A stretch of DNA of 64,000 nt from Pseudomonas pergaminensis (GTDB lineage Bacteria; Pseudomonadota; Gammaproteobacteria; Pseudomonadales; Pseudomonadaceae). Location of the stretch: NCBI RefSeq assembly GCF_024112395.2, contig NZ_CP078013.2:4030001-4094000 (forward strand). The letters run 5' to 3'. Each line of letters begins with the position of its first letter. Position 1 is the stretch's first letter. Below are positions 6,064-20,325 of the stretch, one piece after another. The position numbers were made by a program, and so were the translations under genes. The notes under the pieces were generated by a model. It saw nothing but the letters and a program-made list of their open reading frames with translations, ran no database searches and was not told the DNA's origin.

Positions 6064-7275
6064 TCAGGTGACCAGTTGGTTGATCTCGATGATCGGCAAC
6101 AGCACCGCCATGACGATTACCAGCACCACGGCGCCCATCACCACGATCATCAACGGCTCCAGCAACGCGGTCATGCCCATGGCGCGGCGTTCGATATCCC
6201 GCGACAGCGTTTGCGCCGCGCGCTCCAGCATCGGCGGGAGCGAGCCGGTTTTTTCGCCGCTGGCGATCAGGTGGATCAGCACCGGCGGGAAGACTTTTTC
6301 CACCGCCAGCGCCGGGGCGAGGTTGACGCCTTCGCGCACTTTGGCGGTGGCGTCGTTGACGCATTGGCTCAGGCGGTCGTTGGACAGGGTTTGCCGCGCC
6401 GCTTCCAGGGCGCGCAACAGCGGCACGCCGGCACCGCCGAGAATCGCCAGGGTCGAGGCAAAGCGCGCGGTGTTCAGGCCCAATACAAAACGCCCGATCA
6501 GGGGCAGGCCCAATACACGGCTGTGCCAATTCAAGCGCGCCACCGGGTTGCGCAAATACAGGCGCCAACTCCAGAAACCGCCAACGATCCCGGCAAAACA
6601 CAGCCAACCCCAGGCGCGGATAAAGTCACTGGCGTTCAGCATTGCCAGGGTCAGCCCCGGCAAATCCTGGCGCGCCTGGGAGAACGCGCTGACCACCTGG
6701 GGCACCACGTAGCTCAGCAAGAAAATCACAATGCCGATGGACACCAGCCCCACCACGCCGGGGTAGATGAACGCGGTGAGGATCTTGCCCCGCAGGTTGT
6801 TGCGCTCCTCGATGTAGTCGGCCAGCCGCTCCATGACCTGGGCCAGATCACCCGACTCCTCCCCGGCCGCAATCAACGCGCGGTAGATCGACGGAAAGTC
6901 CCGTGGCCGCGCTGCCAACGCATCCGCCAAACGCATGCCTCCGCGCACATCGGCGCGCACGGCGGCCAGGGTCTGGGCGATATGCTTTTTCTCGGCCTGC
7001 TCCACTGTGGCGCTCAAGGCGGCTTCCAATGGCAGGCTCGCACCCAGCAGGCTTGCCAGTTGCCGCGTGGCCCAGGCCAGGTCGTTGTCCGACAGCTTGG
7101 CGGTGAACAGGCTGCTGCCGGAGGCCGCTTGCTGATTGCCTTCAATTTGCACCAGCAACGCCGTCAGGCCTCGGCTGCGCAGGCTGGCAAATGCCGCGCT
7201 CTGGCTGTCGGCCTCCACGTGCCCGGCCTCAACCTTGCCGCTGGCATCGGCGGCCTCATAGCGATAGCGATTCAT
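6064..7275 (-). CDS. hxcS: Type II secretion inner-membrane platform protein GspF (HxcS)
   Basis: 403 aa, the normal GspF length. It opens MNRYRYEAADASGKVEAG, the usual GspF start, followed by two T2SSF domains separated by hydrophobic segments (about residues 165-195 and 215-240) and a terminal membrane helix near the C-terminus. GspF forms the inner-membrane base that couples the GspE ATPase to pseudopilus assembly. The ATG overlaps the hxcR stop by one base, implying translational coupling. Last gene of the minus-strand hxc run before the DING gene. Confidence 0.94.
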   Translation of the reverse strand: MNRYRYEAADASGKVEAGHVEADSQSAAFASLRSRGLTALLVQIEGNQQAASGSSLFTAKLSDNDLAWATRQLASLLGASLPLEAALSATVEQAEKKHIAQTLAAVRADVRGGMRLADALAARPRDFPSIYRALIAAGEESGDLAQVMERLADYIEERNNLRGKILTAFIYPGVVGLVSIGIVIFLLSYVVPQVVSAFSQARQDLPGLTLAMLNASDFIRAWGWLCFAGIVGGFWSWRLYLRNPVARLNWHSRVLGLPLIGRFVLGLNTARFASTLAILGGAGVPLLRALEAARQTLSNDRLSQCVNDATAKVREGVNLAPALAVEKVFPPVLIHLIASGEKTGSLPPMLERAAQTLSRDIERRAMGMTALLEPLMIVVMGAVVLVIVMAVLLPIIEINQLVT

Positions 7276-8693
7276 CAGGCGTCCCGTGTCACGCGCAGGA
7301 TTTCTTCGGGCGCGGTGGCGCCGCTGCGCACCCAGCGCTCGCCGTCTTCACGCATGCTGAACATCCCGGCACGCCGGGCGGCCAGGCGCAGGTCCTGCTC
7401 GTTGGCGCCCTGGTGGATGAGGCTGCGCACGTCATCATCGACGCAAAACAACTCATGGATCCCGGTACGGCCGCTGTAGCCCATCTGGTTGCACTGCGCG
7501 CACCCCACCGGACGCCACGTGCCGGGCGCCGCCGGGTCCTCCTGCTTGCAGTGCGGGCACAGGCGGCGCACCAGGCGCTGGGCCAACACACCCAGCAAGG
7601 ACGACGCCAACAGAAACGGTTCGACGCCCATGTCGATCAGCCGGTTGACCGCCGACACCGCGTCATTGGTGTGCAAGGTCGCAAGCACCAAGTGCCCGGT
7701 GAGCGAAGCCTGCACGGCGATTTGTGCGGTCTCCAGGTCGCGGATCTCACCGATCATGATGATGTCCGGGTCCTGGCGCAGAATCGCACGCAGCGCCAGG
7801 CCGAACGTCATGTCGATCTTGGCGTTGACCTGGATCTGGCTGATGCCCGGCAGGTCGTATTCCACCGGGTCCTCGACGGTGAGGATATTGCTGGTGCTCG
7901 CATCCAGCCGCGCCAAGGCGGCGTACAGGCTGGTGGTCTTGCCACTGCCGGTGGGCCCGGTGACCAGCACGATGCCGTGGGGTTGGCGGATCAACGTGTC
8001 CAGGCGCGCCAGCAACTGCGGCTCCATGCCCAGGGTCTCCAATTGCAGGCGCCCGGCTTGTTTGTCCAGCAGGCGCATGACGACTCTTTCACCATGGCCG
8101 GTGGGCACGGTGGACACCCGAATATCGATGGGACGACCGGCCACGCGCAGTGCGATGCGACCGTCCTGGGGCAGGCGTTTTTCGGCGATATCGAGTTGGG
8201 CCATGATCTTGATCCGCGACACCAGTGCGCCATGCAACGCCTTGCGTGGCGACACCACGTCCCGCAGGGTGCCGTCGACGCGGTAGCGCACGACGGAGTG
8301 GGTTTCGTAGGGTTCGATGTGGATGTCACTGGCTTCATCGCGGGCGGCCTGGGTGAGCAAGGCGTTGATCATGCGGATCACCGGGGCGCCGTCCTGGGTG
8401 TCGAGCAGGTCGGTGACTTCGGGCATGTCTTGCATGAGGCGGTCGAGGTCGACTTCGTTTTCGGCGGCGCCCACTACGGCGGCGGCGCTGCCGGTGTCGG
8501 CGTAGGCGCTGGTGAGCAGGCCGTCGAGTTCGTCGTCGCGGACCTGTTCGAGGTGGGTTTGGCCGAATTGGCGGTGGACTTCGCTGATGGACCAGCCGGG
8601 GGTTGAGGGGCACACGGTTAGCAGGTGGCCTGCTTCGGTGGGGCGCAGGAGGATGCGTTGGGATTTGGCCCAGGCGTACGGCAATAGGCTCAT
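7275..8693 (-). CDS. hxcR: Type II secretion ATPase GspE (HxcR)
   Basis: 472 aa. Walker A GPTGSGKTTSLY, the Asp/His boxes typical of PulE/PilB ATPases (EIRDLETAQIA, HTNDAVSAVNRL) and a Cys4 zinc cluster (CPHC...CAQC) near the C-terminus are all present. It powers pseudopilin assembly on the cytoplasmic face with HxcS and HxcY. Unlike the rest of the operon it is not coupled to its upstream neighbour: 723 bases of repeat sequence separate repeat start to end, and 829 bp in all lie between it and hxcQ. The Shine-Dalgarno before its ATG is poor, so repeat insertion may affect its expression. Confidence 0.95.
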   Translation of the reverse strand: MSLLPYAWAKSQRILLRPTEAGHLLTVCPSTPGWSISEVHRQFGQTHLEQVRDDELDGLLTSAYADTGSAAAVVGAAENEVDLDRLMQDMPEVTDLLDTQDGAPVIRMINALLTQAARDEASDIHIEPYETHSVVRYRVDGTLRDVVSPRKALHGALVSRIKIMAQLDIAEKRLPQDGRIALRVAGRPIDIRVSTVPTGHGERVVMRLLDKQAGRLQLETLGMEPQLLARLDTLIRQPHGIVLVTGPTGSGKTTSLYAALARLDASTSNILTVEDPVEYDLPGISQIQVNAKIDMTFGLALRAILRQDPDIIMIGEIRDLETAQIAVQASLTGHLVLATLHTNDAVSAVNRLIDMGVEPFLLASSLLGVLAQRLVRRLCPHCKQEDPAAPGTWRPVGCAQCNQMGYSGRTGIHELFCVDDDVRSLIHQGANEQDLRLAARRAGMFSMREDGERWVRSGATAPEEILRVTRDA

Positions 8694-8716
8694 TGGGTTG
8701 GACCCGCTTTTAGGTG

Positions 8717-8988
8717 TACATATCCGTTTTTTGGGTAACGGCGGCTATTGGTTCCGCTCTTACAGCGGCTCACTTTTGAAAAGCGCAAAAGTAAGCAAAA
8801 CGCTCTTGCCCCAACACTCGGCACCTCGCCTGGGCTCGGTGTGCCCGTAATCCGACAGTGATTTGGGGGGCCGCCGCCACGCGCCATCCATGGCGCGGGG
8901 CGGCTAAACCGGCATCCCTGCCGGTTTACCCCCCAAATCCCTGCCGAATTCCGGCCAGCGTGTTTGACGGGGCGCCTAAGATCAAAAT
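8717..8988 (-). repeat. Structured dispersed repeat, copy A
   Basis: Inverted copy of the element also found at 9246-9518 and 19841-20113. Ends are TACATATCCGTT (left) and GGCGCCTAAGATC (right). Internal palindromes include GCGCCAT-CC-ATGGCGC (8881-8896) and AAACCGGCA-TCCC-TGCCGGTTT (8906-8927), enclosed by an outer stem 8853-8870 / 8929-8946. Nearly identical to copy C. Confidence 0.9.
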
Positions 8989-9065
8989 CAAGATCAAGAT
9001 CAAAAGCAAAAGCACAGCGGCCTGACAGCCGGCTTGAGTGGTGTGGAGCAAAGGCATACGCGGTC

Positions 9066-9165
9066 TTGTAGGATCTGGCTTGTCGGATTGCCGCATCGCT
9101 GCGATGCAGGCACCTCGGTGAGTCAGCTACACCCAGGTGATACTTTCGCAGGCAAGCCAGCTCCC
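9066..9165. repeat. Degenerate REP pair between repeat copies A and B
   Basis: TGTAGGATCTGGCTTGTCGG at the left and GCAGGCAAGCCAGCTCCCACA at the right are REP arms; the spacer holds further short palindromes (GCATCGCTGCGATGC). Confidence 0.7.
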
Positions 9166-9245
9166 ACATTTGACCGAGTTCGACAGTCAGATACCGGTCA
9201 GCTCTAAGGCCGACGCGCTCTGCTTTTGCTTTGGCTCTGGCTTTT

Positions 9246-9518
9246 GCTTTTGATCTTAGGCGCCCCGTAAAACCACGCTGGCCGAACGCAGGCTTTGGAG
9301 CGTGGGTAACCCGGCAGGACGCCGGGTTAGCCGCGCTGGGCCAAGGATGGCCCATCGCGGCGGCCCACGCTCCAAAGCCGGAGTGAGGGCACACCGAGCC
9401 TAGGCGAGGCGCCGAGTGGTGGGGCGAAGGCCTTTTGGTTACTTTTGGGCCTTTCCAAAAGTGACCCGCTGTAAGAGCGGAACCATAAGTAGCCGTGACC
9501 GCAGCAACGGATATGTAC
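9246..9518 (+). repeat. Structured dispersed repeat, copy B (diverged core, same fold)
   Basis: Shares the ends GATCTTAGGCGCC and CGGATATGTAC with copies A and C but has different central sequence. The same folding plan is kept: outer stem GCTTTGGAGCGTGGG (9292-9306) with its exact complement (9364-9378), hairpin TAACCCGGC/GCCGGGTTA (9307-9329), and hairpin GCCGCG-C-TGGGCCA-AGGA-TGGCCCA-T-CGCGGC (parts within 9330-9361). Downstream hairpins ACTTTTGG/CCAAAAGT and CCGCT/AGCGG follow. Confidence 0.9.
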
Positions 9519-9522
9519 TCAA

Positions 9523-11799
9523 TCACGGCCGCCCCCCAGAAACAGGAATCGCCTTCTCCACCGAAGGCAACTGCGGCGCCTGCACATCCGGCATCGCCCA
9601 ACTATGCTCGGGCTGCAACCCCCCTTGCGCCCTGCGCATAAACTCATACCGATTCAACGTAATACTACGCCCCGCCCCACTGTCCCGAATAATGTACGGC
9701 CGCAAAAACACCATCAGGTTGGTCTTGTTCACACTGCGCTTCTCATTGCGAAACAACGCCCCCAACCCCGGAATGTCCGACAACCACGGCACCGCATCAT
9801 TACTCTGGCTATAGCCATCCTGCAGCAACCCACCAAGCACCATGATTTGCCCGTCATCGAGCAAAATACTGGTATCGATCGCCCGCTTGTTGGTCACCGT
9901 CCCCGCCTCCACCGAGGCCCGCGCATCTACGGTGCTGACCTCTTGGTAAATATCCAGCTTCACCGTGCCACCCTCGGAAATCTGCGGCCGCACATTCAGC
10001 TTGAGCCCCACCTCTTCACGCTGCACCGTCTGGAACGGGTTATTGCTGGTCCCCCCGCCACCGGTCACGTAGCTGCCGGTGACAAACGGGATGGTCTGGC
10101 CGACAAAAATACTCGCCGCCTCGTTGTCCAGGGTCAGCAGGTTAGGCGTGGACAATACGTTGGTGCCACCCTTGCTCTTCAACGCACGGGCCAACACCTT
10201 GAGGTCGAGCACCTTGCCAATACCGGGAATGTCCACCGTGCCGTTGACCAGCCCCACGTTCAGGCCCTTGGGCAAAACGTCGATGCTGGTCTTGCTGGTC
10301 GGCGTGCTGTTCACCCCGCTGCCGCCCAGGTTGACCCCGCCGAAACCGCCCTTGCCGCCCAGGTTGCCGGCCTGCCACTGCACGCCAAACTCAGTGGCAT
10401 CGTCTTCCCCGACTTCCACGATCAGGCTCTCGATCACCACCTGGGCGCGGCGCTGGTCGAGCATGTCGATGACTTCGCGCAGGTTGCGGTACAGCGGGTC
10501 CGGTGCGGAGATCAGCAAGGTGTTGGTGGTGGCGTCCGCCTGGATAGTCACGCCGCCGGCACTGAACGCGGTGTCCTGATTCTCGTTGTTGGCGCCATTG
10601 GGGCTGGTCGTCGAACCAGGGGCCTGGCCATAGCCCGACTGCACACCGCTGCCGGTGGGTGTGCCGCTGCTGTTTTGCGCAGTGCTGGTGCCTTGGCTGT
10701 TCTTGCCATTGCCGCCCATGGCGCTGAGTTTGCCGCGTGCGTCATCGCTCACGCCAGAATCACTTTCGCCGGTGAGCAAGCCGCGCAGTGACTGGGCCAG
10801 CTTGCCCGCCTGGGCGTTGCGCAGGTACACCACGTGCATGTTGCTGGGGTTGCTCTGGGCATTGTCGAGCTTGTAGATCAGGTTGCGGGCCAGCTCGGTG
10901 CGCTCGGGGCTGCCGGAGCGGATGATGATCGAGTTGGAACGCGGGTCGCCGATCACATTGATCTTCTGGGTCTGGTCGGCGCCCTGGGTTTCCAGCAGCT
11001 CGGAGACCATGGCGGCGATGTCCACGGCAATGCCGTTTTGCACCATCACTACGTCGGTGTCGATGGCGCTGGGGGTGTCGATGCCGTTGATGATCTGCGC
11101 CACCCGCGCGAGGTTTTCCGCGTAGTCGGTGATCACGATGCTGTTATTGCCGGGGTAGGCATTGATCGGGTTGTTCGGCGACACGATGGGGCGCAGCACC
11201 GGGATCAGGTTGACCGCGTTTTCATATTGCAGGCGAAAGGTGCGGGTCTGCATGCCGCTGCTGCCAGCGCTGTAGATCGGCCCGCCGAGCAACTTGGCAT
11301 CGGCTTCGGGCACCACCTGGGCCACGCCACCCACATCGACCACGCTGAAGCCCTGCATGCGCAGCGCCGCCAGCAGCATGTCGTAGGCCTGATGCGCCGG
11401 CACCTGGCCTTCGCTGACCAAAGTAAGGTTGCCCTTCACACGCGGGTCCACCAAAAATTGCTGGCCCGTGGCGCGGGACAGCGCGCGCACCACCGCCTGG
11501 ATATCGGCATCGACAAAGTTGAGCTGCACCGGCTGGTCGCCCAGCGGGTTGCGCGCCTTGACCGCCGCCGGGGCGTGGCCGCGTGCGCTGTTGGTGACCC
11601 GATGCTGGACGGGCGGCTTGGGTGCCGGTTCGCGCTGGCGATCGAGCAAGGTTTCGCCGCTGCGGCGGGTTTCCGCCAGGGGTTGGCCGAGTTCACTGTC
11701 CACCAGCAACGGCTTGGCCGGCTCCTGGCTGCTGCACGCACTCAGGGCTAGCACCAGCAGCGGCGCGACCAGACGAAACGGGGGGACTGACCACTTCAT
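9523..11799 (-). CDS. hxcQ: Type II secretion outer-membrane liposecretin GspD (HxcQ)
   Basis: 758 aa. The signal sequence ends LALSAC with the lipid-receiving Cys at residue 22 and Ser at +2, so it is a lipoprotein. N0 domain at about 90-165 (VQLNFVDADIQAVVRALS), N1-N3 repeats follow, a Gly/Ser/Asn-rich linker interrupts N3 (about 350-400), and the secretin barrel occupies the C-terminal third (VPWLSDIPGLGALFR). It forms the outer-membrane channel. P. aeruginosa HxcQ is known as a liposecretin that pilots itself to the outer membrane by its lipid, and this protein has the same feature. Starts inside the end of hxcZ (4-bp ATGA overlap). Confidence 0.95.
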   Translation of the reverse strand: MKWSVPPFRLVAPLLVLALSACSSQEPAKPLLVDSELGQPLAETRRSGETLLDRQREPAPKPPVQHRVTNSARGHAPAAVKARNPLGDQPVQLNFVDADIQAVVRALSRATGQQFLVDPRVKGNLTLVSEGQVPAHQAYDMLLAALRMQGFSVVDVGGVAQVVPEADAKLLGGPIYSAGSSGMQTRTFRLQYENAVNLIPVLRPIVSPNNPINAYPGNNSIVITDYAENLARVAQIINGIDTPSAIDTDVVMVQNGIAVDIAAMVSELLETQGADQTQKINVIGDPRSNSIIIRSGSPERTELARNLIYKLDNAQSNPSNMHVVYLRNAQAGKLAQSLRGLLTGESDSGVSDDARGKLSAMGGNGKNSQGTSTAQNSSGTPTGSGVQSGYGQAPGSTTSPNGANNENQDTAFSAGGVTIQADATTNTLLISAPDPLYRNLREVIDMLDQRRAQVVIESLIVEVGEDDATEFGVQWQAGNLGGKGGFGGVNLGGSGVNSTPTSKTSIDVLPKGLNVGLVNGTVDIPGIGKVLDLKVLARALKSKGGTNVLSTPNLLTLDNEAASIFVGQTIPFVTGSYVTGGGGTSNNPFQTVQREEVGLKLNVRPQISEGGTVKLDIYQEVSTVDARASVEAGTVTNKRAIDTSILLDDGQIMVLGGLLQDGYSQSNDAVPWLSDIPGLGALFRNEKRSVNKTNLMVFLRPYIIRDSGAGRSITLNRYEFMRRAQGGLQPEHSWAMPDVQAPQLPSVEKAIPVSGGRP

Positions 11800-12308
11800 G
11801 AAGCTTCCTTAGCGCCAAGCGCCTGATCCATGCGAACGGTCCCGGACACAGTGCCGGCCGCGTTGTCGACGGTGTCGAGGGCGCGCTGCAAACGCGCCTC
11901 GGACACCTCCAGGGAAAACGAGCGGGCATTGCCCAGCAGCCAGCCCACCACCGCGTCGGCCGGGGCGTTGTCGAACGTCAGGCTCCAGCCACCAGGTGCC
12001 AGCGCCTGCAAGTGGTAGTGGCCTCGCAGGCCGGCACTATCGAGGGCCTGGCGCAGTGCGGTTTCGTTACCCGGCCGGGGCGCGGCGACATCCTGCAACA
12101 GCACCTGCAAGGCTTCGGCCTGGGCACGCAACTTGGGGGTTTCGGCCTGCCAGTAATCGATCTTCTTTAGCGCGGGCGCCACCAGCACCAGCCAGGTCAA
12201 CAGGCTCGCTAAAACCAGGCCGGCAGCGCCGAGCATGCGTTTCTCGCGCAGGGCCAGGCCACGCCAGAACACCTGGGCCTGGCTGCGCAGTCGTTGGATT
12301 TTATTCAT
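11796..12308 (-). CDS. hxcZ: Type II secretion protein GspM (HxcZ)
   Basis: 170 aa. A short cytoplasmic N-terminus (MNKIQRLRSQAQVFWRGLALREKRM is the basic lead-in; core motif LREKRML) precedes one membrane helix (about 31-48, AGLVLASLLTWLVLVAPAL) and a periplasmic ferredoxin-like domain, the GspM plan. GspM partners GspL in the inner-membrane platform. Start 12308 overlaps the end of hxcY by 8 bp; a longer upstream frame has no support. Confidence 0.88.
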   Translation of the reverse strand: MNKIQRLRSQAQVFWRGLALREKRMLGAAGLVLASLLTWLVLVAPALKKIDYWQAETPKLRAQAEALQVLLQDVAAPRPGNETALRQALDSAGLRGHYHLQALAPGGWSLTFDNAPADAVVGWLLGNARSFSLEVSEARLQRALDTVDNAAGTVSGTVRMDQALGAKEAS

Positions 12309-13359
12309 CAGCGGCCCCTGGCTTTTCCGCCGCCGGCGCCGGGGCGATGGTCCAACCGTGCTCATCGCGGCTGGCGGCAAAGCCGGCCTGGGCCAACGCC
12401 GCCTGCCATTCACCTTCGGCCGTCGGGTTGCGACTGTCAGCCAATAGCTCGACGTGCAGGCGCCCCTGCTCATAACTCACGTTGTCGACGCTGCCGACCA
12501 TGAACGGCAGGTGGCTGCCCGCCAGTTGCAACAAGCGGGTGAAGCGTTGTCCGGGGTCGTCCGCCGCGCCGCTCTGGCGTGCGGCCAATTGCTGACGCAC
12601 CTGCTGCAAGGGGTTGAGCACCACCGGCAATTCGGGGAACGCCTGGCGCACTTGCTGGCTCATCAACGCCTTGAGTCGCTGGCCTTCTTCCACTTGGCGT
12701 GCGGCGTACAGGTTGAGTCCCAGGGTCCAGATGGCCACGGCCAGCGCCACACAGGCCAGCGCCCTGCCCCAGCCGCCAGTCGATGGCGGGTTGAGGCGAC
12801 CGTGCAACCCCCAGGCAGGCACCGGCCCACTCCACCGCTGGGCCGCCTCCACCAGCGGCACCTCCAACGCCTGCACGCCCAACGGGTGCACCGCGCCTTG
12901 CTGCAGGCTCTCACGTGTCAACAGATAGCCTTCATCCAACGCCGCTGCGCCCACCGGCAAGGCATAGGGCGCCGGGTACAGGCCGCGCAACTTGAGTGGC
13001 AATTGCGCCAACCGCTCCAGCCCGGCCTTGGGCACCCAGGCCACTTGCACGCGGCCATCGCTCTCACGCGGGCCGTGGGCCACCTGCATCTGCTCCACCG
13101 GGCCGAGGATCAGCGCCTGCGCCGCACAGGCCACGGCGGCCGCTGTCTTCGCCGCCGGCAATGGCGGCAGCTCCAGGCTGGTGAGCAGGCTGTCACGGGG
13201 ATGCAGGAAACAGTCTGCCGCCTGGCGCGATTTACCCAGTTGCGCCAGGCTCTGAGAGCCCTCTTCAACGACCACGCCACGCTCCAGCCAGGCAAACCTG
13301 ACCAGGCTTTCGGCGCTCAATTGATCCAGTGGCGGCAGGCCAATGCGCAAGCGTTTCAT
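12301..13359 (-). CDS. hxcY: Type II secretion protein GspL (HxcY)
   Basis: 352 aa. The N-terminal ~190 residues are a cytoplasmic actin-like domain that in GspL binds the GspE ATPase. One membrane helix follows (about 217-233, ALACVALAVAIWTLGLNLYA) and then a periplasmic domain ending in a Pro/Ala-rich tail. Identity rests mainly on architecture and on its place between GspK and GspM, the universal gspKLM order. Its ATG overlaps the hxcX stop by 4 bp. Confidence 0.88.
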   Translation of the reverse strand: MKRLRIGLPPLDQLSAESLVRFAWLERGVVVEEGSQSLAQLGKSRQAADCFLHPRDSLLTSLELPPLPAAKTAAAVACAAQALILGPVEQMQVAHGPRESDGRVQVAWVPKAGLERLAQLPLKLRGLYPAPYALPVGAAALDEGYLLTRESLQQGAVHPLGVQALEVPLVEAAQRWSGPVPAWGLHGRLNPPSTGGWGRALACVALAVAIWTLGLNLYAARQVEEGQRLKALMSQQVRQAFPELPVVLNPLQQVRQQLAARQSGAADDPGQRFTRLLQLAGSHLPFMVGSVDNVSYEQGRLHVELLADSRNPTAEGEWQAALAQAGFAASRDEHGWTIAPAPAAEKPGAADE

Positions 13360-14225
13360 ACACCCACCCGCGACCAGATCACCCGTGGCTGACGGTCTTC
13401 AGGGCGGTGCAACAAGGCGTCGAGGGCGACCCGGCGTTGTTCGCGACGCGCCTGGCCCTGCACGCGAAACCACTCGCTGGTAATGCCCACCTGCACCGAC
13501 TCCACCGCCACCTGGGGCAAGTGCAGACGGTTGACGAAATCCCCACGGTTGATAAACCACTGCCCACTGTCACGCTCGGCCACCAGCCCATGGGCCTGGG
13601 ACAGACTCAGCTGAGGCACCACCGCGCTGAGCACTTCGGCGCTCGCGGTGTTGCCGTTGACCCAGGTCGGGCCGGGCAGCACGCTGATATAGGCTTGCAT
13701 ACGCTGCAACACGACAGGGTCGAGGCCTTCGATGCCGCCCAGGTCATCCAGGTTGCGCAGCATCGGGTATTTGACGGGCGCTACATAAGACGCGATCACC
13801 CGCTGGCTGATGCGCCGACTCACCGCCGGATCAACACCGATCAGCCGGCACAGCCGCTCGAAACGCTGCAACTGTTCGGTGTCCACCTGCTGGCGATTGA
13901 CCAGGTTGCGCAGGTTGAACTTGCCCTGCTCATCCTCGATGCGCCCCTCGAAGGCGCCACGCTGGACCAGCGCCCAGGGCTGGTCAAGACGGGTCAGCAC
14001 GTCTTTCTGGCGCGCATCCCAGAGCAGCTGGCGGCTGCGCTCCAGGCCACCCTCCAATAGCCACTGGCCCTGGATACGCAACTGCTCGGCTTCCAGGCTG
14101 CGGGTGAATACGGTCTGGCGCGTGAGCATGGCGCCGGCCAGTACTGCCACCACCGCCGCGATCAGCAAGGCGCTGATAATCGCCATACCGCGCTGCTTCG
14201 CCGCTGGGGGCGAACACCCTTTCAT
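13356..14225 (-). CDS. hxcX: Type II secretion minor pseudopilin GspK (HxcX)
   Basis: 289 aa. The N-terminus is prepilin-like: a short leader KQRG followed by MAIISALLIAAVVAVLAGAM, the GspK variant of the pseudopilin helix. The large C-terminal alpha domain characteristic of GspK follows, including GDFVNRLHLPQV near the end. GspK caps the pseudopilus tip with GspI and GspJ. The start at 14225 lies 8 bp after the hxcT stop; a longer frame upstream would overlap hxcT and lacks a leader. Confidence 0.92.
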   Translation of the reverse strand: MKGCSPPAAKQRGMAIISALLIAAVVAVLAGAMLTRQTVFTRSLEAEQLRIQGQWLLEGGLERSRQLLWDARQKDVLTRLDQPWALVQRGAFEGRIEDEQGKFNLRNLVNRQQVDTEQLQRFERLCRLIGVDPAVSRRISQRVIASYVAPVKYPMLRNLDDLGGIEGLDPVVLQRMQAYISVLPGPTWVNGNTASAEVLSAVVPQLSLSQAHGLVAERDSGQWFINRGDFVNRLHLPQVAVESVQVGITSEWFRVQGQARREQRRVALDALLHRPEDRQPRVIWSRVGV

Positions 14226-14233
14226 GGCGCGCC

Positions 14234-14683
14234 TTACAGCTGCCAGGAGCCAATATCGGCATTCACGCCATCGCCATCCGGCTGGCCGTCGGCGCCGAGG
14301 GAGAACACATCCACCTCGCCATTGGCGCCTGGGTTGAGGTAGTGATAAGGGTGGCCCCACGGGTCATTGGGCAAGCGTTCCAGGTAGGCGCGCCAGGTGC
14401 TGTTCTTCGCATCCGCCGGGCGTTCCACCAGCACCTTCAAGCCCTGGTTCATGCTCGGGTAAGTGCCGTGGTCGAGGCGGTAGAGTTTCAGCGCCTGCAT
14501 CAACCCGCCGATGTCCTGTTTGGCCGCCGTGGCCCGCGCCTGGTCCGGACGGTCGAGAACCTTGGGCACCACCATGGCCGCCAGGATCCCGAGGATGACC
14601 ACCACCACCATGATCTCGATCAACGTAAAGCCACGCTGCCCGCGAGGGCCTGGCAACGGGGACGTTAGGCACGCGATATCCAT
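14234..14683 (-). CDS. hxcT: Type II secretion major pseudopilin GspG (HxcT)
   Basis: 149 aa. The prepilin peptidase site is RGQRG|FTLIEIMVVVVILGIL, and the C-terminus has the GspG calcium-site region (DPWGHPYHYLNPG, SLGADGQPDGDGVNADIGSW). It forms the pseudopilus shaft. Start 14683 is chosen because AAGGAA precedes it and the leader has normal length. First gene of the minus-strand hxc operon (T-X-Y-Z-Q-R-S), divergent from hxcV. Confidence 0.95.
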   Translation of the reverse strand: MDIACLTSPLPGPRGQRGFTLIEIMVVVVILGILAAMVVPKVLDRPDQARATAAKQDIGGLMQALKLYRLDHGTYPSMNQGLKVLVERPADAKNSTWRAYLERLPNDPWGHPYHYLNPGANGEVDVFSLGADGQPDGDGVNADIGSWQL

Positions 14684-14720
14684 CTCGACATTCCTTGGCT
14701 TGAGTGCAATTCGTGGCGCA

Positions 14721-14735
14721 GTGTTGCAAGAACAC
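14721..14735. promoter_or_regulatory. Palindrome GTGTT-N5-AACAC between hxcT and hxcV
   Basis: The perfect palindrome GTGTTGCAAGAACAC sits in the 148-bp divergent promoter region of the two hxc transcription units. It may be a regulator site; the protein is unknown. Confidence 0.3.
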
Positions 14736-14831
14736 ATGTCAGTCGTATTGAAAATCCTCGGGAGTTTCGGTCGCCAATCGGTCAACTGCCGGCGCTAGTC
14801 TGCGGGCCTGTTTCCAGGCTTTGAGAGCGCC

Positions 14832-15197
14832 ATGTACGGCTGTCGCAAGGAGCAAGGTTTTACCCTGATTGAAGTGCTGGTGGCGCTGGCGATCATCGCC
14901 GTGGCCATGGCCGCCGCCGTGCGCGTGGCCGGGCTGATGACCCAGAGCAACGGGCTGCTGCGGGACAAGTCGATCGCCTTGCTGGCGGCCCAGAGTCGAC
15001 TGGCGGAGTTGCGCCTGGAGGGACACCTGCGCAGCGGCCAGAAGACGTTCGAATGCGACCAGGGCCGCCTGAAACTGCGTTGCGAGCAGACCATCAACGC
15101 CGATGGCCGCGTGTTTCAGATCAACCTGCAGGTGCTCGACGCCAGTCGCGCAGCCCCGCCCCTGGCGCGCCTGGAAACCCAGGTCATGGCCGAGTGA
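14832..15197 (+). CDS. hxcV: Type II secretion minor pseudopilin GspI (HxcV)
   Basis: 121 aa. Leader MYGCRKEQG|FTLIEVLVALAIIAVAMAA is a canonical type II pseudopilin N-terminus, and the length and LRDKSIALLAAQSRLAELRL helix suit GspI. GspI nucleates the tip complex with GspJ and GspK. It is on the plus strand, divergent from hxcT, and its last 14 bp overlap the convergent hxcP. Confidence 0.9.
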   Translation: MYGCRKEQGFTLIEVLVALAIIAVAMAAAVRVAGLMTQSNGLLRDKSIALLAAQSRLAELRLEGHLRSGQKTFECDQGRLKLRCEQTINADGRVFQINLQVLDASRAAPPLARLETQVMAE

Positions 15198-15615
15198 GCA
15201 GCGGCAACGCCGGCCCTTGCGGCAACTTGTCGAGGTTGACGCGCAGCGTCTCGCCACCGCGCTCGATCTCCACGCCGTCGCCTTCGATGGCCGTCAGCCG
15301 CACGCCGGGGCTGAGCCGTTCACCCAGTAGAAAACTGCGCGGCGGGCCGCCATTCAGACTGAGGATCGCCACCGCCCCTCGCGCGCCTGCCAGCACCCCC
15401 GTGACCTTCACCTGCAGCGCCGTCGGCGCATTGGAAAACCACTGCAGCGCCGGGTTGTCGCTGCGCGCCGCCAGTGCCTGGGGCGCGGCTGGCGGTGTGT
15501 GGGATTCGGCGGTGGTCAGCAGCAGCGGCGTCCATACCGCCACGCCCGTCAGCGCGGCCAACATACCCAGCGCCTGCACTCCATGGGCCAGGGTGAAGCG
15601 AGGGATGAATGTCAT
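15184..15615 (-). CDS. hxcP: Type II secretion protein GspC, short form (HxcP)
   Basis: 143 aa. One N-terminal membrane helix (about 13-33) precedes a periplasmic HR domain (about 58-125; SLNGGPPRSFLLGERLSPGV) in which GspC contacts the secretin. It ends soon after: the PDZ or coiled-coil domain of longer GspC proteins is absent. AGGAGG-type Shine-Dalgarno precedes the ATG. It lies on the minus strand between hxcV and hxcU, both plus strand; the V-P-U-W order equals P. aeruginosa PA0680-PA0677. Confidence 0.85.
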   Translation of the reverse strand: MTFIPRFTLAHGVQALGMLAALTGVAVWTPLLLTTAESHTPPAAPQALAARSDNPALQWFSNAPTALQVKVTGVLAGARGAVAILSLNGGPPRSFLLGERLSPGVRLTAIEGDGVEIERGGETLRVNLDKLPQGPALPLLTRP

Positions 15616-15708
15616 GGGCAGGACCTCCTGTTTGTCCGTCGCACCAGCCTACAGGTCAATTCGCACGCTTTTATTTCACACACTCCCCAGTTCTCCAGGT
15701 GGTCACCG

Positions 15709-16161
15709 ATGAAACAGCAAGGCTTCACCCTGATCGAGCTGATGGTGGTGCTGGTGATCATCGGTATCGCCAGCGCCGCCATCAGCCTCACGATCAAACC
15801 CGACCCGTTGCACCTGCTGCGCAAGGACGCCGAGCGCTTGAGCCAACTGCTGCAAGTCGCCCAGGCCGAAGCCCACGCCGACGGCCGCCCCATCACCTGG
15901 CGCGCGGATGCCAAAGGGTTTCGCTTTAACCGCCAACGGGACGACGGCCAGGGCATCGAAACGTTTACAAACGACGATCAACTGCGCCCGCGCCTCTGGG
16001 ACAGCACGCCGATGAACATCAGCATCGAACCCCGACAAACCCTGGTGCTCAACGCCGAATGGATCAACCCGCCGCTGCGCGTGGTGCTGTCCGACGGCCA
16101 ACACAGCCTCAGCCTGCAACGCGACGCCGCCGGCCTGATGCGCGTGGTCAGCCAACCATGA
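15709..16161 (+). CDS. hxcU: Type II secretion minor pseudopilin GspH (HxcU)
   Basis: 150 aa. Prepilin site MKQQG|FTLIELMVVLVIIGIAS is followed by a helix (DAERLSQLLQVAQAEAHADG) and the beta domain of GspH. The start at 15709 is set by the short leader. Overlaps hxcW by 4 bp (ATGA), so the two are co-translated. Confidence 0.92.
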   Translation: MKQQGFTLIELMVVLVIIGIASAAISLTIKPDPLHLLRKDAERLSQLLQVAQAEAHADGRPITWRADAKGFRFNRQRDDGQGIETFTNDDQLRPRLWDSTPMNISIEPRQTLVLNAEWINPPLRVVLSDGQHSLSLQRDAAGLMRVVSQP

Positions 16162-16754
16162 ACAGGTCCCAGCAAGGCTTCACCCTGATCGAAGTGATGG
16201 TGGCGATCATGCTCATGGCGGTGGTCAGCCTGATCGCCTGGCGTGGGCTCGACAGCGTGACCCGGGCGGATCAGCATTTGCAGGCGAGCTCCGAGCAGAC
16301 CGAGGTATTGCTGCGTGCGCTGAACCAGATGCAACGGGACATCAGCCTGCGCGCCCGTGTCGAACTGACGCCCACGGACACGGCACAAACGGAAGGCCTG
16401 GCCGCCGTGACCGTGCGCAGCTCCGACAGCAAAGGCTTTCGCCTCGACGTGATCCGCAGCGCCCCCATGGCAGGCGATGGCCTGCAACGGGTACGTTGGT
16501 GGCTCAAGGGCGACGCACTGTATCGCGCCGCCGCCCCGGCGCGGGATCGCTACCCCCTGCCGGCAGCGAAGGACGGCGTAGTGGTGCTGACCGGCGTCAG
16601 TGACTTGCAGGTACGGGTGTGGGAAGCAGAAAAAGGCTGGCGGCAGCTGAGCGGGAATCGACGCGAAGACCCGGTGGGACTGGAGATCAGCCTGGTGCGA
16701 CAGACGCCGCAGGGGGTAGAAAAATACCGGCAGGTCGTGGGGCCGTTGAAGTAG
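16158..16754 (+). CDS. hxcW: Type II secretion minor pseudopilin GspJ (HxcW)
   Basis: 198 aa. Leader MNRSQQG|FTLIEVMVAIMLMAVVSLIAW is a pseudopilin signal. The globular domain has GspJ features: WWLKGDALYRAAAPARDR, then GVSDLQVRVWEAEKGW. It belongs to the pseudopilus tip. Last plus-strand hxc gene; a broken HTH fragment and vreR follow on the other strand. Confidence 0.92.
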   Translation: MNRSQQGFTLIEVMVAIMLMAVVSLIAWRGLDSVTRADQHLQASSEQTEVLLRALNQMQRDISLRARVELTPTDTAQTEGLAAVTVRSSDSKGFRLDVIRSAPMAGDGLQRVRWWLKGDALYRAAAPARDRYPLPAAKDGVVVLTGVSDLQVRVWEAEKGWRQLSGNRREDPVGLEISLVRQTPQGVEKYRQVVGPLK

Positions 16755-16782
16755 GGGCGGCCCCTTGGCCGTCCCGCCGCCG

Positions 16783-16905
16783 TCAACGTTCGCGCTGGCC
16801 TGTCTCAAGCCACGCTTTGTTGACACTCAAGGTTGTCGCCAGTTTTTCCATGCGCGCAACCGGCAGCCCGCGTGAAAACCAATTGTTGAGGCACGGGATG
16901 AACAA
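16783..16905 (-). pseudogene. Remnant of an XRE-family helix-turn-helix regulator (C-terminal end)
   Basis: A 41-codon frame just after vreR, without a start codon context, reads CLNNWFSRGLPVARMEKLAT then TLSVNKAWLETGQRER and stop. This matches the end of XRE/Cro-type HTH domains (pattern xxWFxRGxPxxxxxxKLAxxLxVxxxWLxxG). The frame is closed upstream by a stop at 16906-16908. Called a decayed fragment; recognised by pattern only. Confidence 0.45.
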
Positions 16906-16914
16906 TCAAGGCCT

Positions 16915-17841
16915 TCAACTCAACAACACCACCCCACCCGGCAACTCCGTACACTTGGCCCCGTACGCATCCCGAATCAACAACGCCACACCCGCCAGTT
17001 GCTGCAAACTGAACCGCGCTTGCACCCGGCGTTGGCCCAGTTGCTTATTCAACAGCACCAGCATGCCGGGGCGGTATCGGTTGATTTCATCCACCACCGT
17101 CGCCAGGGTGGCGTTGTTGAAGACCAGCACTTGCTCACGCCAGGCCACGACCGTTTGGGTGTCTACCGTCGTCACGTCGCTGACGCCGGCAGCGCCGTAG
17201 GTGAGCTGCCGGCCGCTGTCCAGGCGCACGCTGCGCCCGGCGATGTCCACCAGAAGTGAACCTTCGATGCAGGTGACGCACACGTTGTAGTCGGTATTGC
17301 GCAGGTTGAAGCGCGCCTGTGCCGCGCTTACCCAGCCTTCGCCGGCCTGGACCTTGAGCGGTTGTACCACGTGGGCGACCACTTCGACTTCGCCCTCGAG
17401 CAGCTCGATGCCCTGCCCCACCCGGCTGATGCGGGTCTGGGTGTTGAGTTCCAGGCTGATGCCGTCGCTCAGCAGGACTTGGCGTTGCTCGCCGACCTCG
17501 GTGCGGTAATCGGCGGTGAGCCCGGCAAAGCCACCCGGTACGCCGACGCGAACCATTACCACAGCGGCAGAGGCGGCGATCGCACCGCCCAGGAAGGCAC
17601 GCCGGCCAAAGCTGCGCGGTTGCGAGACGTGCTCCAGCGCAGGCGCCACGTGCTGCCACAGCGTCTTGGCCTGCTCGAATGCCTGGGCATGTTCCGGGCT
17701 TTGTGCGCACCAGGCCTTGAGGGCCTTGGCATCGGCCACGGTGGCGCGGCCCGAGGTCAGCAGGACCAGCCAATCGCGGGCTTCATCGTGCAGGGGGCTG
17801 GCGGCGGATTGCCGGGCGGTGGAGAGGCTAAAAATATTCAA
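16915..17841 (-). CDS. vreR: FecR-family anti-sigma regulator (VreR)
   Basis: 308 aa. An N-terminal cytoplasmic anti-sigma domain (about 15-75: ARDWLVLLTSGRAT, LKAWCAQSPEHAQAFEQA) precedes a membrane helix at about 82-100 after Arg-Arg 80-81, a periplasmic FecR domain (about 110-215) and a C-terminal STN-like segment (about 245-305). Such proteins hold an ECF sigma factor until a periplasmic signal triggers proteolysis. Directly downstream of vreI (37-bp gap) and next to hxc, as PA0676 in P. aeruginosa. Confidence 0.9.
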   Translation of the reverse strand: MNIFSLSTARQSAASPLHDEARDWLVLLTSGRATVADAKALKAWCAQSPEHAQAFEQAKTLWQHVAPALEHVSQPRSFGRRAFLGGAIAASAAVVMVRVGVPGGFAGLTADYRTEVGEQRQVLLSDGISLELNTQTRISRVGQGIELLEGEVEVVAHVVQPLKVQAGEGWVSAAQARFNLRNTDYNVCVTCIEGSLLVDIAGRSVRLDSGRQLTYGAAGVSDVTTVDTQTVVAWREQVLVFNNATLATVVDEINRYRPGMLVLLNKQLGQRRVQARFSLQQLAGVALLIRDAYGAKCTELPGGVVLLS

Positions 17842-17878
17842 GCGCGCACGTACTCACGGATTTATCAGGGACTCGACA

Positions 17879-18424
17879 CTAAGACGGTTTTCCGGCCCCG
17901 GGACCGAACCGCTGAATCACTTTTCTTTCCAGGCGCTTGGCACAGTGGCCCAGGGCAGCCTTGATTTCTTTCTCGACCATGCGCGTGGAAATGCCGAAAC
18001 GCTGGGAGATTTCCAGGTGCGGCGCCTCCTCCAGGCGGGCGGCAATGAGGATTTTGCGCCGGCGTGCCGGCAGCTCGTAGAGGGCCTTGACCAGGGATTG
18101 GATGTCTTTCTGGCCGCCCACCACCCGCGACGGGTCCTGGGCTTCGTCGGCGCTTTGCAGCAACTCTTCCACCTCGCTGCCGGTGAGCAGGCGCGCATCG
18201 GCCTGGCGGCGGTCGGCGGCGATGTTCAGGGCCATGCGGTACAGGTAGGCATTGGGCTGCTGCAGGTTCGGCGGCACGTCCATGCGGTCGACCCGCAGGT
18301 ACGTCTCGTGCAGCACGTCGTTGGCCAGGTCCTCCGAGCCCAGGCGCTTGCGCAAACGCACCTTGAAGTCTTCGTAGGAGGCCAGGAACAAGCTGACCAT
18401 TGTGCTGTGCCCGGAATTTTTCAT
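17879..18424 (-). CDS. vreI: ECF sigma factor (VreI)
   Basis: 181 aa. Region 2 has GSEDLANDVLHETYLRVDRM and PNAYLYRMALNIAADRRQ; region 4 has LPARRRKILIAARLEEAPHLEIS with HTH RFGISTRMVEKEI. It is a FecI-type sigma-70 factor. The ATG at 18424 overlaps the vreA stop (ATGA). In P. aeruginosa VreI, active under phosphate starvation, drives the vre, hxc and pdt genes; the identical neighbourhood supports the same role here. Confidence 0.9.
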   Translation of the reverse strand: MKNSGHSTMVSLFLASYEDFKVRLRKRLGSEDLANDVLHETYLRVDRMDVPPNLQQPNAYLYRMALNIAADRRQADARLLTGSEVEELLQSADEAQDPSRVVGGQKDIQSLVKALYELPARRRKILIAARLEEAPHLEISQRFGISTRMVEKEIKAALGHCAKRLERKVIQRFGPGAGKPS

Positions 18425-19128
18425 CCCCCCGAGGCTCCTTTCGCTGCTGTGCATTCCATGCGTGTTCCTGTTGTGTCAGGCATCAAAAGTAAAGTCACCG
18501 GTTGGCGCAACGAGCTTGGTGCCGGGCGTTCGACCCGCGCCGTTGCCAGGCTGCGCACCAGTGCTTCATCGCGTTGTTCATCGCCGGTGGAACTGACCAG
18601 CCGGCTGTGTTCGATCACCCCGTCCGGGTTGACCCACACCTGCACCAGCGCACGAAAACTGCCGGGCCGGGTCAGCGGCGAACGGCACAGGCTGCCTTCG
18701 ATGGCTTGCTGCAGCGCCGTCGCGTAGCTGTTGTTGATCCGCACAGCACTGCGTGCCGCCGCACCACGGGTGGGGGGCGGCTGACTGACCTGCGGGGCCT
18801 GCAAGGTAAACGCATCGCTGCGTGCATAACGGGCCATCAGGCCACTCCCTGTCAGCAACATCGCCAGTGCCTCTTGCGCCGTAAAGCGCCCGCGCACCCC
18901 GATGGCACGCCGGCCCCGCGTCAACTCGCGGTCAACCAGCACCGCCATCCCGGTGGCGCGGCTGTAGGCTTGCAGTGCGTGTTCCAGGTCTTGCGCCGGC
19001 AGGTCCAACGACAACAGGGGTGAATCTGCCTGCGCTGCGCGACCACCGACCAGCAGCAACAGCAAGACCAGGGCGCATGCGACGCGCCTCCAGACTCCCT
19101 GCTCACCCCCTGCTCTGCATCGCTGCAC
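18421..19128 (-). CDS. vreA: Periplasmic signalling protein with STN domain and TonB-C-like domain (VreA)
   Basis: 235 aa. A hydrophobic export signal (about 17-34) is followed by an STN domain (about 38-100: LSLDLPAQDLEHALQAYSRA, LTRGRRAIGVRGRFTAQEAL) like the signalling domain of TonB-dependent transducers. The C-terminal part (about 125-215; FRALVQVWVNPDGVIEHSRL) resembles a TonB C-terminal domain. There is no beta-barrel, as described for P. aeruginosa VreA. First gene of the vreAIR operon. Confidence 0.87.
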   Translation of the reverse strand: MQRCRAGGEQGVWRRVACALVLLLLLVGGRAAQADSPLLSLDLPAQDLEHALQAYSRATGMAVLVDRELTRGRRAIGVRGRFTAQEALAMLLTGSGLMARYARSDAFTLQAPQVSQPPPTRGAAARSAVRINNSYATALQQAIEGSLCRSPLTRPGSFRALVQVWVNPDGVIEHSRLVSSTGDEQRDEALVRSLATARVERPAPSSLRQPVTLLLMPDTTGTRMECTAAKGASGG

Positions 19129-19183
19129 GGCCGACGCGCCCTAGAAAACCGTCATCCTGAGGCCAGTTTATGAACCTGATGTT

Positions 19184-19214
19184 ACGGTGATAGCAAAAAA
19201 AACATCACGGTGAT
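19184..19214. promoter_or_regulatory. Direct repeat ACGGTGAT in the vreA / 19283 divergent promoter region
   Basis: ACGGTGAT occurs at 19184-19191 and 19207-19214, separated by an A-rich tract, start-to-start distance 23 bp (about two helical turns). It lies between divergent genes and may be a regulator site; no regulator can be named. Confidence 0.3.
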
Positions 19215-19282
19215 GAGAGGCGCGCTGCACTAGACTTTCAAGCCTAACCGGCCCCCTCCCCAGGGCCAGCCAGGAGGCCCCG

Positions 19283-19594
19283 ATGAAATCGTTACCGACC
19301 CTCGCCAGCCTGTTGCTGTGCGCCGCCCTGCCCTTGCTGGCCCATGCCGACAACAGCGCCGGCACTTGCGCCGAAGTCACGGTGGATGGCTACAAGGCAC
19401 CGGACTATGGCTGCCTGAGCCAACAAATGGGCAACGACACAAATGCGGCCAAAGCCGCGCAAAAGAACCGCGAAGCGCAGGCCCTTCCCGTGGAAAAGCG
19501 CCTACCGAATAAACTTGGCCTGGCCACCCCGGCGGCGACCAGCGTACGCATGGGCAATACCTTCGGGACGTCGGTGAAGCCGCAGCGGCCTTGA
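19283..19594 (+). CDS. Small exported protein of unknown function
   Basis: 103 aa. Clear signal peptide (MKSLPTLASLLLCAALPLLAHA), cleavage before DNSAGTCAEV. The mature part is hydrophilic, has two Cys residues (TC and GCLSQQM) that could pair, and no recognised domain. A Shine-Dalgarno (CCAGGAGG) precedes the ATG. It is divergent from vreA and shares its promoter region, which suggests but does not prove a link with phosphate-starvation regulation. Confidence 0.8.
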   Translation: MKSLPTLASLLLCAALPLLAHADNSAGTCAEVTVDGYKAPDYGCLSQQMGNDTNAAKAAQKNREAQALPVEKRLPNKLGLATPAATSVRMGNTFGTSVKPQRP

Positions 19595-19617
19595 GAAATC
19601 AAAGCGCCCAGGCAATG

Positions 19618-19830
19618 CCATCGCAGGCAAGCCAGCTCCCACATGGGAACGGGATCGACAGCAAAAACCCGGTCGGCTCTAAGGCCGCCTTCGCTGGCAA
19701 GCCAGCTCCCACATTTAGATCGCGGGGCTACAGTCAGATAGCGGTCAACTGTCAGGCTGCCTTCGCGAGCAAGCCCGCTCCTACATTTGACAGGGATCGA
19801 CAGCAAAAACCCGGTCGGCTCTAAGGCCGC
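19618..19830. repeat. Array of three same-orientation REP units
   Basis: GCAGGCAAGCCAGCTCCCACA, GCTGGCAAGCCAGCTCCCACA and GCGAGCAAGCCCGCTCCTACA recur about every 70 bp, linked by spacers such as GGGATCGACAGCAAAAACCC and GCGGTCAACTGTCAGGC. Mixed REP subtypes. Confidence 0.85.
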
Positions 19831-19840
19831 CGCGCTTTGC

Positions 19841-20113
19841 TTTTGATCTTAGGCGCCCCGTCAAACACGCTGGCCGGAATTCGACAGGGATTTGGGGGGT
19901 AAACCGGCAGGGATGCCGGTTTAGCCGCCCCGCGCCATGGATGGCGCGTGGCGGCGGCCCCCCAAATCACTGTCGGATTACGGGCATACCGAGCCTAGGC
20001 GAGGTACCGAGTGTTGGGGCGAAGGCCTTTTGCTTACTTTTGGGCCTTTCCAAAAGTGAGCCGCTGTAAGAGCGGAACCATAAGCGGCCGTTACCGCAGC
20101 AACGGATATGTAC
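19841..20113 (+). repeat. Structured dispersed repeat, copy C
   Basis: Same orientation as copy B, sequence very close to copy A. Outer stem 19882-19899 / 19958-19975 (one mismatch), hairpin TAAACCGGCA-GGGA-TGCCGGTTTA (parts within 19900-19923), hairpin with GCCGCC, GCGCCAT and their complements (19924-19955), then ACTTTTGG/CCAAAAGT and CCGCT-GTAAG-AGCGG hairpins before the end CGGATATGTAC. Confidence 0.9.
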
Positions 20114-20144
20114 CCAGCCAGATCCAACATCCAGGCCGGCTGTC

Positions 20145-20325
20145 AGGCCGCCTTCGCAGGCAAGCCAGCTCCCACACTTGGATCCCGGGGAGACAGTTGG
20201 AGAGAGGTCGGCTGTCAGGCCGCTTTCGCAGGCAAGCCAGCTCCCACATTTAGATCGCGGGGCTACAGTCAGATAGCGGTCAACTGTCAGGCCGCCTTCG
20301 CGAGCAAGCCCGCTCCCACAGAGAG
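20145..20325. repeat. Second REP array, three units
   Basis: Three REP units in one orientation about 70 bp apart (GCAGGCAAGCCAGCTCCCACA twice, GCGAGCAAGCCCGCTCCCACA once). Spacer sequence CTACAGTCAGATAGCGGTCA is shared with the first array at 19618-19830. Confidence 0.85.

Follow-up and report, generated by a model that had tools for sequence, protein, structure and literature searches.

The three repeats of about 270 bp analysed here, A, B and C, appear to be members of a dispersed non-autonomous Pseudomonas repeat, whose 270-bp unit contains the fold of the Rfam family RF01731 (TwoAYGGAY). They lie in a stretch of 64,000 nt from Pseudomonas pergaminensis (GCF_024112395.2, NZ_CP078013.2, positions 4,030,001–4,094,000, forward strand), hereafter the window, to which all coordinates refer unless stated otherwise. 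The reading preferred here, to which a probability of about 0.5 is given on sequence grounds, is that of a non-autonomous dispersed element whose transcripts would present paired sites of the Rsm/CsrA type. It is supported by membership of RF01731, the 55 units of the genome, covariation, the conservation of GGA, the presence of three CsrA-family genes, head-to-head pairing, the absence of units at the gsp and C sites of relatives and the existence of decayed copies with outer ends. An origin as a spreading element is well supported, and such an element is quite probably to be preferred to a static gene family; the docking mechanism proposed below is the best single guess as to what the fold would do.

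The A–B composite and unit C

A and B are the two ends of one element of about 800 bp, in which they are arranged head to head around a REP-type pair. The left arm of this composite is unit A (272 bp, 8717–8988, minus strand, RF01731 core 8836–8962) and its right arm is unit B (273 bp, 9246–9518, plus strand, RF01731 core 9284–9386). The spacer between the arms (8989–9245; a gap of 258 bp according to BLAST ends) contains hexamer-like runs (GATCAA/CTTTTG type) on both sides of the REP-type sequences. Terminal inverted repeats, a criterion used for MITEs, are present, the outer ends GTACATATCCGTT being found at either side of the composite. The left one, GTACATATCCGTTTT, which has one mismatch to the search pattern, is located at 8716–8730 on the plus strand (genome 4038716–4038730); the right one, at 9504–9518 on the minus strand (genome 4039504–4039518), is the GTACATATCCGTTTT sequence inverted, GTACATATCCGTTGC.

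The composite is inserted between gspD and gspE, two genes of a same-direction operon. The upstream gene, gspD (9523–11799, minus strand, TIGR02517), encodes a type II secretion secretin and has its stop codon 4 bp away from the composite, and the downstream gene, gspE (7275–8693, minus strand, TIGR02533), encodes a type II secretion ATPase. Unit C (273 bp, 19841–20113, plus strand, RF01731 core 19866–19992) is a solo, A-like unit. REP-type repeats are found on the plus strand both upstream of it (19620–19788, repeat families D1 and D3, starts partly 72 bp apart) and downstream of it (20134–20323, repeat families D1 and D2, starts 72 bp apart). The initial annotation had placed and oriented the three units exactly, and its description of A and C as near-identical and of B as sharing their ends with a different core was borne out.

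A 303-aa reading frame (8690–9601, minus strand) spans the entire A–B composite, and related frames, all in one BLAST group, occur at units in 34 of 104 loci. These frames are probably spurious ORFs of the repeat, which may be annotated as hypothetical proteins.

Membership of RF01731 and fold of the units

Over the full RF01731 model (positions 1–168), A, B and C obtain bit scores of 59.1, 49 and 61.5, respectively, against a gathering threshold of 43, with E-values for the 64-kb window of 3.2e-07, 6.2e-05 and 8.7e-08. Their membership of this family is virtually certain, and the question whether the fold was already known, left open at first, is answered by its entry in Rfam. In a survey of 2010, TwoAYGGAY was reported from the human gut, Gammaproteobacteria and Clostridiales and considered to be probably an RNA and probably not cis-regulatory (PMC2864571); the type label of RF01731 in Rfam is cis-regulatory. 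The available text of the TwoAYGGAY literature gives no established function or setting for the family. A literal AYGGAY loop is found once in A and once in C and is not found in B. The possibility that B is an unrelated element having only its ends in common with the others, which the initial annotation had named as its refutation, does not hold: B alone passes RF01731, and B-like units regularly serve as the arm opposite an A-like unit.

RNA folding gives the three cores the common three-way junction that had been proposed for them, and all the stems specified at that time are located within the computed folds. The z-scores of the cores are −7.7 (A), −9.9 (B) and −9.4 (C), none of 200 dinucleotide shuffles being as stable for any of them. 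Of the remainder of the proposed structure, the two small hairpins 3' of the core are weakly supported (z = −1.8 for the 3' 141 nt of C, equalled by 9 of 200 shuffles); 3' hairpins with different stem sequences were seen by eye in several other bacterial families. The compensating stem changes between A/C and B are real, and among the B-like copies of this genome there are already variants of the outer stem with compensated changes as well as variants of the hairpin II stem. When the gspD–gspE read-through RNA is folded whole, both cores are predicted to be kept as local junctions on a long stem.

Covariation

A covariance model built from 20 sequences of the P. pergaminensis genome was run on 91 sources, and the best 150 of the 152 matches at E ≤ 1e-4 formed a genus-wide alignment. 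In this alignment, which is fitted to the structure and includes five antisense rows, both sides change in 40 of 43 pairs, and pairing cells amount to 95.0%; shuffles reach 79.2% and slid controls no more than 41.4%. After removal of antisense and gappy rows, 115 rows and 147 columns were tested in the manner of R-scape, with a tree-based null and 40 replicates. Eleven column pairs reach E < 0.05, among them 9 of the 43 structure pairs (four in the outer stem, two in hairpin I, two in hairpin II and one in the next small hairpin), the 34 other structure pairs not being significant. Another significant pair, 211–237, extends the next small hairpin, and the pair 198–200 is unexplained. As the tree was derived from the same alignment and copies may recombine, the test supports the case and does not finish it. 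Selection on a folded nucleic acid, deduced in the initial annotation from three copies, is supported over many copies, by changes on both sides as well as by significant pairs in each of the stems for which they had been predicted.

Copies and layout in the P. pergaminensis genome

With 150 of 253 first-look candidates scored, the genome contains at least 54 RF01731 matches. A BLAST comparison of the stretches collected gives 55 units as a minimum, of which 45 are A/C-like and 10 B-like. Nine of the 10 B-like units have a head-to-head A/C-like partner, which is truncated in one case, the 5' ends facing inward and the gaps being of 204–258 bp. In the three pairs inspected, each arm has an outer end on its far side and a hexamer-like run on its inner side, and the REP-type pair lies in the centre between the two runs. 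Solo units (n = 37) comprise 36 A/C-like units and one B-like unit. At least three TTGATC-like hexamers are found within 120 nt upstream in 35 of them, and 34 are followed by one or more REP-type sequences in the next 430 nt or so.

Runs of hexamers of the TTGATC/CTTGCT type, variable in length, lie directly upstream of solo units in this genome. Tandem arrays of a 72–74-bp REP-containing unit are also seen beside solo units (20134–20323 in the window; 645–1360 in locus L010), L010 carrying 9.6 copies of a 74-bp unit.

The outer-end pattern, searched with at most one mismatch, occurs 64 times in the genome, and its reversed control never. Fourteen of these occurrences, at 12 loci, fall outside the 55 units. 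By BLAST, nine of the 12 loci have both end parts with a deleted or rearranged interior, two have the outer end only and one gives no match; one of the deleted loci (L369) corresponds to a site that holds an intact pair in a relative (G017). Cores are thus often deleted while ends remain, which implies that the core is dispensable at single sites and counts against the preferred reading. The composite A–spacer–B would be the spreading form, and either this form or recombination with REP arrays would have given rise to the solo and internally deleted copies.

No recurring neighbouring transposase was found among 104 loci (ORF groups judged by eye), no autonomous element with the same ends among the 12 extra end loci or the ORFs beside the 104 loci, and no target-site duplication was visible by eye in the flanks of nine pairs of this genome. 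Plasmid and phage records gave no substantial matches, partial matches being found in two records of each. The outer flanks of some of the pairs look, by eye, mutually inverted (TTGA/TCAA and longer; for example, genome positions 4796814–4797569 and 4772260–4773016), as if the element were sitting in a small palindrome such as a terminator.

Insertion sites

Among 79 named Pseudomonas gspD-like loci, 67 include the start of gspE; a divergent pair is found between the two genes in 14 of these and a single unit in 7 (E < 1e-6). In 18 of the 67, gspD and gspE overlap or abut, many of these loci having only 71–80% GspD identity and some belonging to a second gsp system of the same strain (for example, L319/L339 and L271/L333), so that the 71–80% loci may not be the same site. 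Since they may be paralogous, more weight is given to closer loci, and units are missing from four loci with 87–90% GspD identity, in which the genes are separated by 28 nt (L290 and L300) or 55 nt (L291) or overlap (L298). The gsp site of G004 holds 178 nt with another REP-type pair. At the site of C, no RF01731 match was found in G004, G114, G017, G103 and G134. The sequence between the flanks of this site is 68 nt in G004 and 143 nt including a REP-type pair in G114, whereas in G017 (L364) it spans 1089 nt and includes a gene preceded by a manganese riboswitch; G103 and G134 lack the neighbouring partial gene as well. Judging from presence and absence in related genomes, units come and go at sites.

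Both neighbouring genes could be called, using a simple codon score, for 32 of the 37 solo units. The flanking genes are convergent for 19 of these, divergent for one and co-directional for the others, to which the unit is sense in 7 cases and antisense in 5. A preference of solo units for the sense orientation is rejected by these numbers (7 versus 5), and this too is counted against the preferred reading.

Paired elements in other genomes

RF01731 is present in at least 95 of 149 genomes of the genus, 18 of 274 of the class and 25 of 299 of the phylum, the last two numbers also being minima, each sample including the P. pergaminensis genome and few candidates being scored per genome. Close neighbours, defined as units less than 1 kb apart, are divergent in 44 of 46 cases among the genus loci (one is convergent and one tandem). 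Confidence in the preferred reading is slightly lowered because 18 of these 44 divergent pairs represent a single site, that of gsp, and because some of the empty gsp loci are perhaps paralogues. In the phylum sample, 10 of 17 close neighbours are divergent and 7 are tandem, the latter counting against the preferred reading. Five of the tandem cases come from G693, in which RF01731 matches are seen in tandem arrays and not in divergent pairs (contig C1, 1379445–1380744 and 3660687–3662476), perhaps reflecting a different, sRNA-like use of the fold.

Six distant genomes were searched with all candidates scored. Twenty of 21 close neighbours are divergent, these coming from G247, G319, G430 and G402, and no close RF01731 neighbours were found in G307 and G186. 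Dispersed paired RF01731 elements are found in five gammaproteobacterial families, the occurrence in one family resting on a single pair. Among 30 copies from other genera, 3' hairpins of a like kind were recognized by eye in G247, G319, G430, G402, G307, G323 and G170 and were not seen in G186, G347, G379, G234, G300 and G420. Long copy-specific outer stems, with no recognisable 3' domain, were observed in L196 (G379), L197 (G234) and L193 (G347).

Widely spaced pairs of G319 and G430 were considered as autonomous forms and rejected from the contents of their gaps: that of G319 (L216) encodes, between the RF01731 units, a DUF4160 protein and a HigA-family antitoxin, and that of G430 contains other reading frames, an IS3-family transposase lying beside and not between the units.

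The two arms are of different types in the pairs of P. pergaminensis (A with B). The same holds for all 11 pairs of G247, whose partner arms give no BLAST score with each other, compared with 139–236 bits to the best match elsewhere; the three pairs of G430 have arms of different types, and the five of G319 are similar, but with L262 unclear. These differences are not independent, as the copies of one genome share ancestry. In Pseudomonas pairs, arm-to-arm stem identity ranges from 0.56 to 0.97 (median 0.73) and reaches at least 0.88 in 9 of 44, so that the idea of arms always differing in sequence is rejected. Whole pairs were folded for 33 of the 44, by minimum energy and not as they would fold during transcription. 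In 13 pairs, the local fold of the sense core is retained whichever strand is folded; all 13 belong to the 16 pairs with an arm identity of 0.73 or less, and none to the 17 others. The local sense fold is not kept on both strands in 20 of the 33, a result counted against the preferred reading.

GGA loops and Rsm/CsrA docking

The stems and the second base of the loops vary among the genus rows, whereas GGA is retained by 119 of 121 loops I and by 119 of 120 loops II. The main loop forms are ATGGAT, AGGGAT, AAGGAT and AGGAC, with near-invariant C–G closing pairs; of 122 distinct rows of the genus, 35 have ATGGAT as loop I and 83 have ATGGAT or ACGGAT as loop II. A and C have the loops AGGGAT and ATGGAT, and B has AGGAC and AAGGAT. 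Hairpin I of A/C and hairpin II of B match exactly the core CARGGAUG of the CsrA consensus, quoted as RUACARGGAUGU in PMC7937890; the remaining loops of A, B and C deviate from it in length or at one base. In other families, some copies carry ACGAC, without GGA, as one of their loops, which is counted against a docking role. Three CsrA-family genes are present in the P. pergaminensis genome.

In P. putida KT2440, RsmA, RsmE and RsmI bind in vivo intergenic RNAs beside copies of ISPpu8, an element tabulated in the IS4 family (PMC3056050), and also bind a 'long palindromic region' downstream of PP_3547 (PMC7937890). These RNAs could possibly be an independent sighting of the RF01731 family.

The proposed mechanism can be viewed as follows. 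Whichever strand of a pair is crossed by a host transcript, one arm would be read in the sense direction and would present two hairpins side by side, each with an A(N)GGA(Y) loop. Both loops could be held by the two binding faces of one CsrA, RsmA or RsmE dimer. A read-through transcript of gspD–gspE, for instance, would carry A in sense. The element, carried by a selfish repeat, would then act as a dispersed Rsm/CsrA docking site, either titrating the protein or protecting the transcript. The core RNA is given an even chance of being bound by Rsm proteins. A crude scan of the window between 8650 and 9600 found no sigma-70-like promoter, which counts against the preferred reading.

Alternative explanations

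The initial annotation had offered a choice between a non-autonomous mobile element and a transcribed structured RNA; the repeat may well be both together, although neither active mobility nor transcription is proved by the evidence. REP hairpins are recognition structures for REP-associated tyrosine transposases, and the repeat could be selfish DNA only, its hairpins being one-strand recognition sites for a trans-acting transposase or recombinase, of which the GGA loops would form part, with no role as RNA. This explanation, possible although rather unlikely, would account for the dispersal of inverted pairs, for their conserved outer ends and central REP-type pair, and for the lack of visible target duplication, and single-strand covariation fits single-stranded DNA as well as RNA. 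The 19 of 32 solo units found between convergent genes would, on this view, have settled where an insertion does no harm. However, no enzyme was found beside the units at the 104 loci, and A(N)GGA(Y), with its free second base and invariant C–G closing pair, fits the published CsrA site better than it fits a generic loop.

It is improbable that the fold is a terminator or an mRNA-stabilising hairpin, spread via recombination of REP arrays, which would end or protect transcripts with no protein binding its loops. Such a function would leave GGA in both loops unexplained, and termination would be harmful between the co-directional gspD and gspE, where the composite lies, even though the convergent-gene bias resembles that of Pseudomonas repeat families (PMC2718517), solo units lie among REP-type repeats and their cores are very stable. 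Lastly, extrusion of both strands as a cruciform, for example at a recombination or gyrase site, fits the strong inverted structure in DNA and would likewise keep compensating changes, but is very improbable because the wobble cells are biased to the GGA strand (98 G–U at 16 positions versus 22 A–C at 6 positions in 122 cleaned rows, in an alignment fitted to a model that somewhat favours G–U). Judging from the aligned copies, a single strand is favoured over a cruciform, RNA and single-stranded DNA fitting the covariation equally.

Comparison with known systems

The preferred reading, a dispersed element with putative paired Rsm/CsrA-type sites, shares traits with several known systems. Among the repeats of P. 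fluorescens SBW25 are R178 (101 bp; 18, 28 and 9 copies) and R200 (320 bp; 47 copies in SBW25 and 8 in Pf-5) (PMC2718517). The size and copy number of R200 fit those of the units described here, and the repeat may be R200, a guess that compares size and copy number alone; unlike for the present units, no structure or RNA-family link is given for R200 in the available text of PMC2718517. The element is also similar to REPINs and MITEs in being short, non-coding and multicopy, with inverted ends and, in the composites inspected, a central REP-type pair. It differs from them in that its arms are 270-bp structured units and in that no autonomous relative or target duplication was found. With titrating sRNAs of the CsrB/RsmY/RsmZ type, it has in common the presence of two or more A(N)GGA hairpin loops in each molecule, whereas the units are present in dozens of copies, in a paired layout and with no promoter found. 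A(N)GGA is also contained in the Aln1 sRNAs of Alteromonas (PMC5864184).

The closest comparison is with TwoAYGGAY itself. Neither the fold nor the idea of CsrA binding is new, the latter having been proposed for TwoAYGGAY in 2014 (PMC4333381). A, B and C show the same two GGA hairpins on a common outer stem, but in Pseudomonas the fold belongs to a dispersed repeat of at least 55 units, lies inside a longer unit of 270 bp and is often one arm of a head-to-head pair; the available TwoAYGGAY literature makes no mention of repeats or pairs. Within the literature found, as far as its text was available, what is new is the combination of two features: one covarying fold of the RF01731 type, borne by both arms of a head-to-head dispersed element, and the recurrence of this pairing in several gammaproteobacterial families. 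RF01731 matches in Pseudomonas can be copies of a repeat and not single cis-regulatory leaders, as the Rfam label suggests, and the placing of this orphan RNA family on dispersed paired repeats would connect mobile repeats with the Csr/Rsm network in a way that is open to testing. A broader and more doubtful proposal is that TwoAYGGAY as a whole is a wide gammaproteobacterial class of selfish elements, whose two head-to-head arms would be shaped as docking sites for CsrA/Rsm dimers, either orientation giving one sense site; in some lineages, one fold made of different arm sequences would, according to the predicted structures, keep the antisense arm from masking the sense arm. If this were true, mobile elements would have seeded Csr/Rsm sponges through whole genomes.
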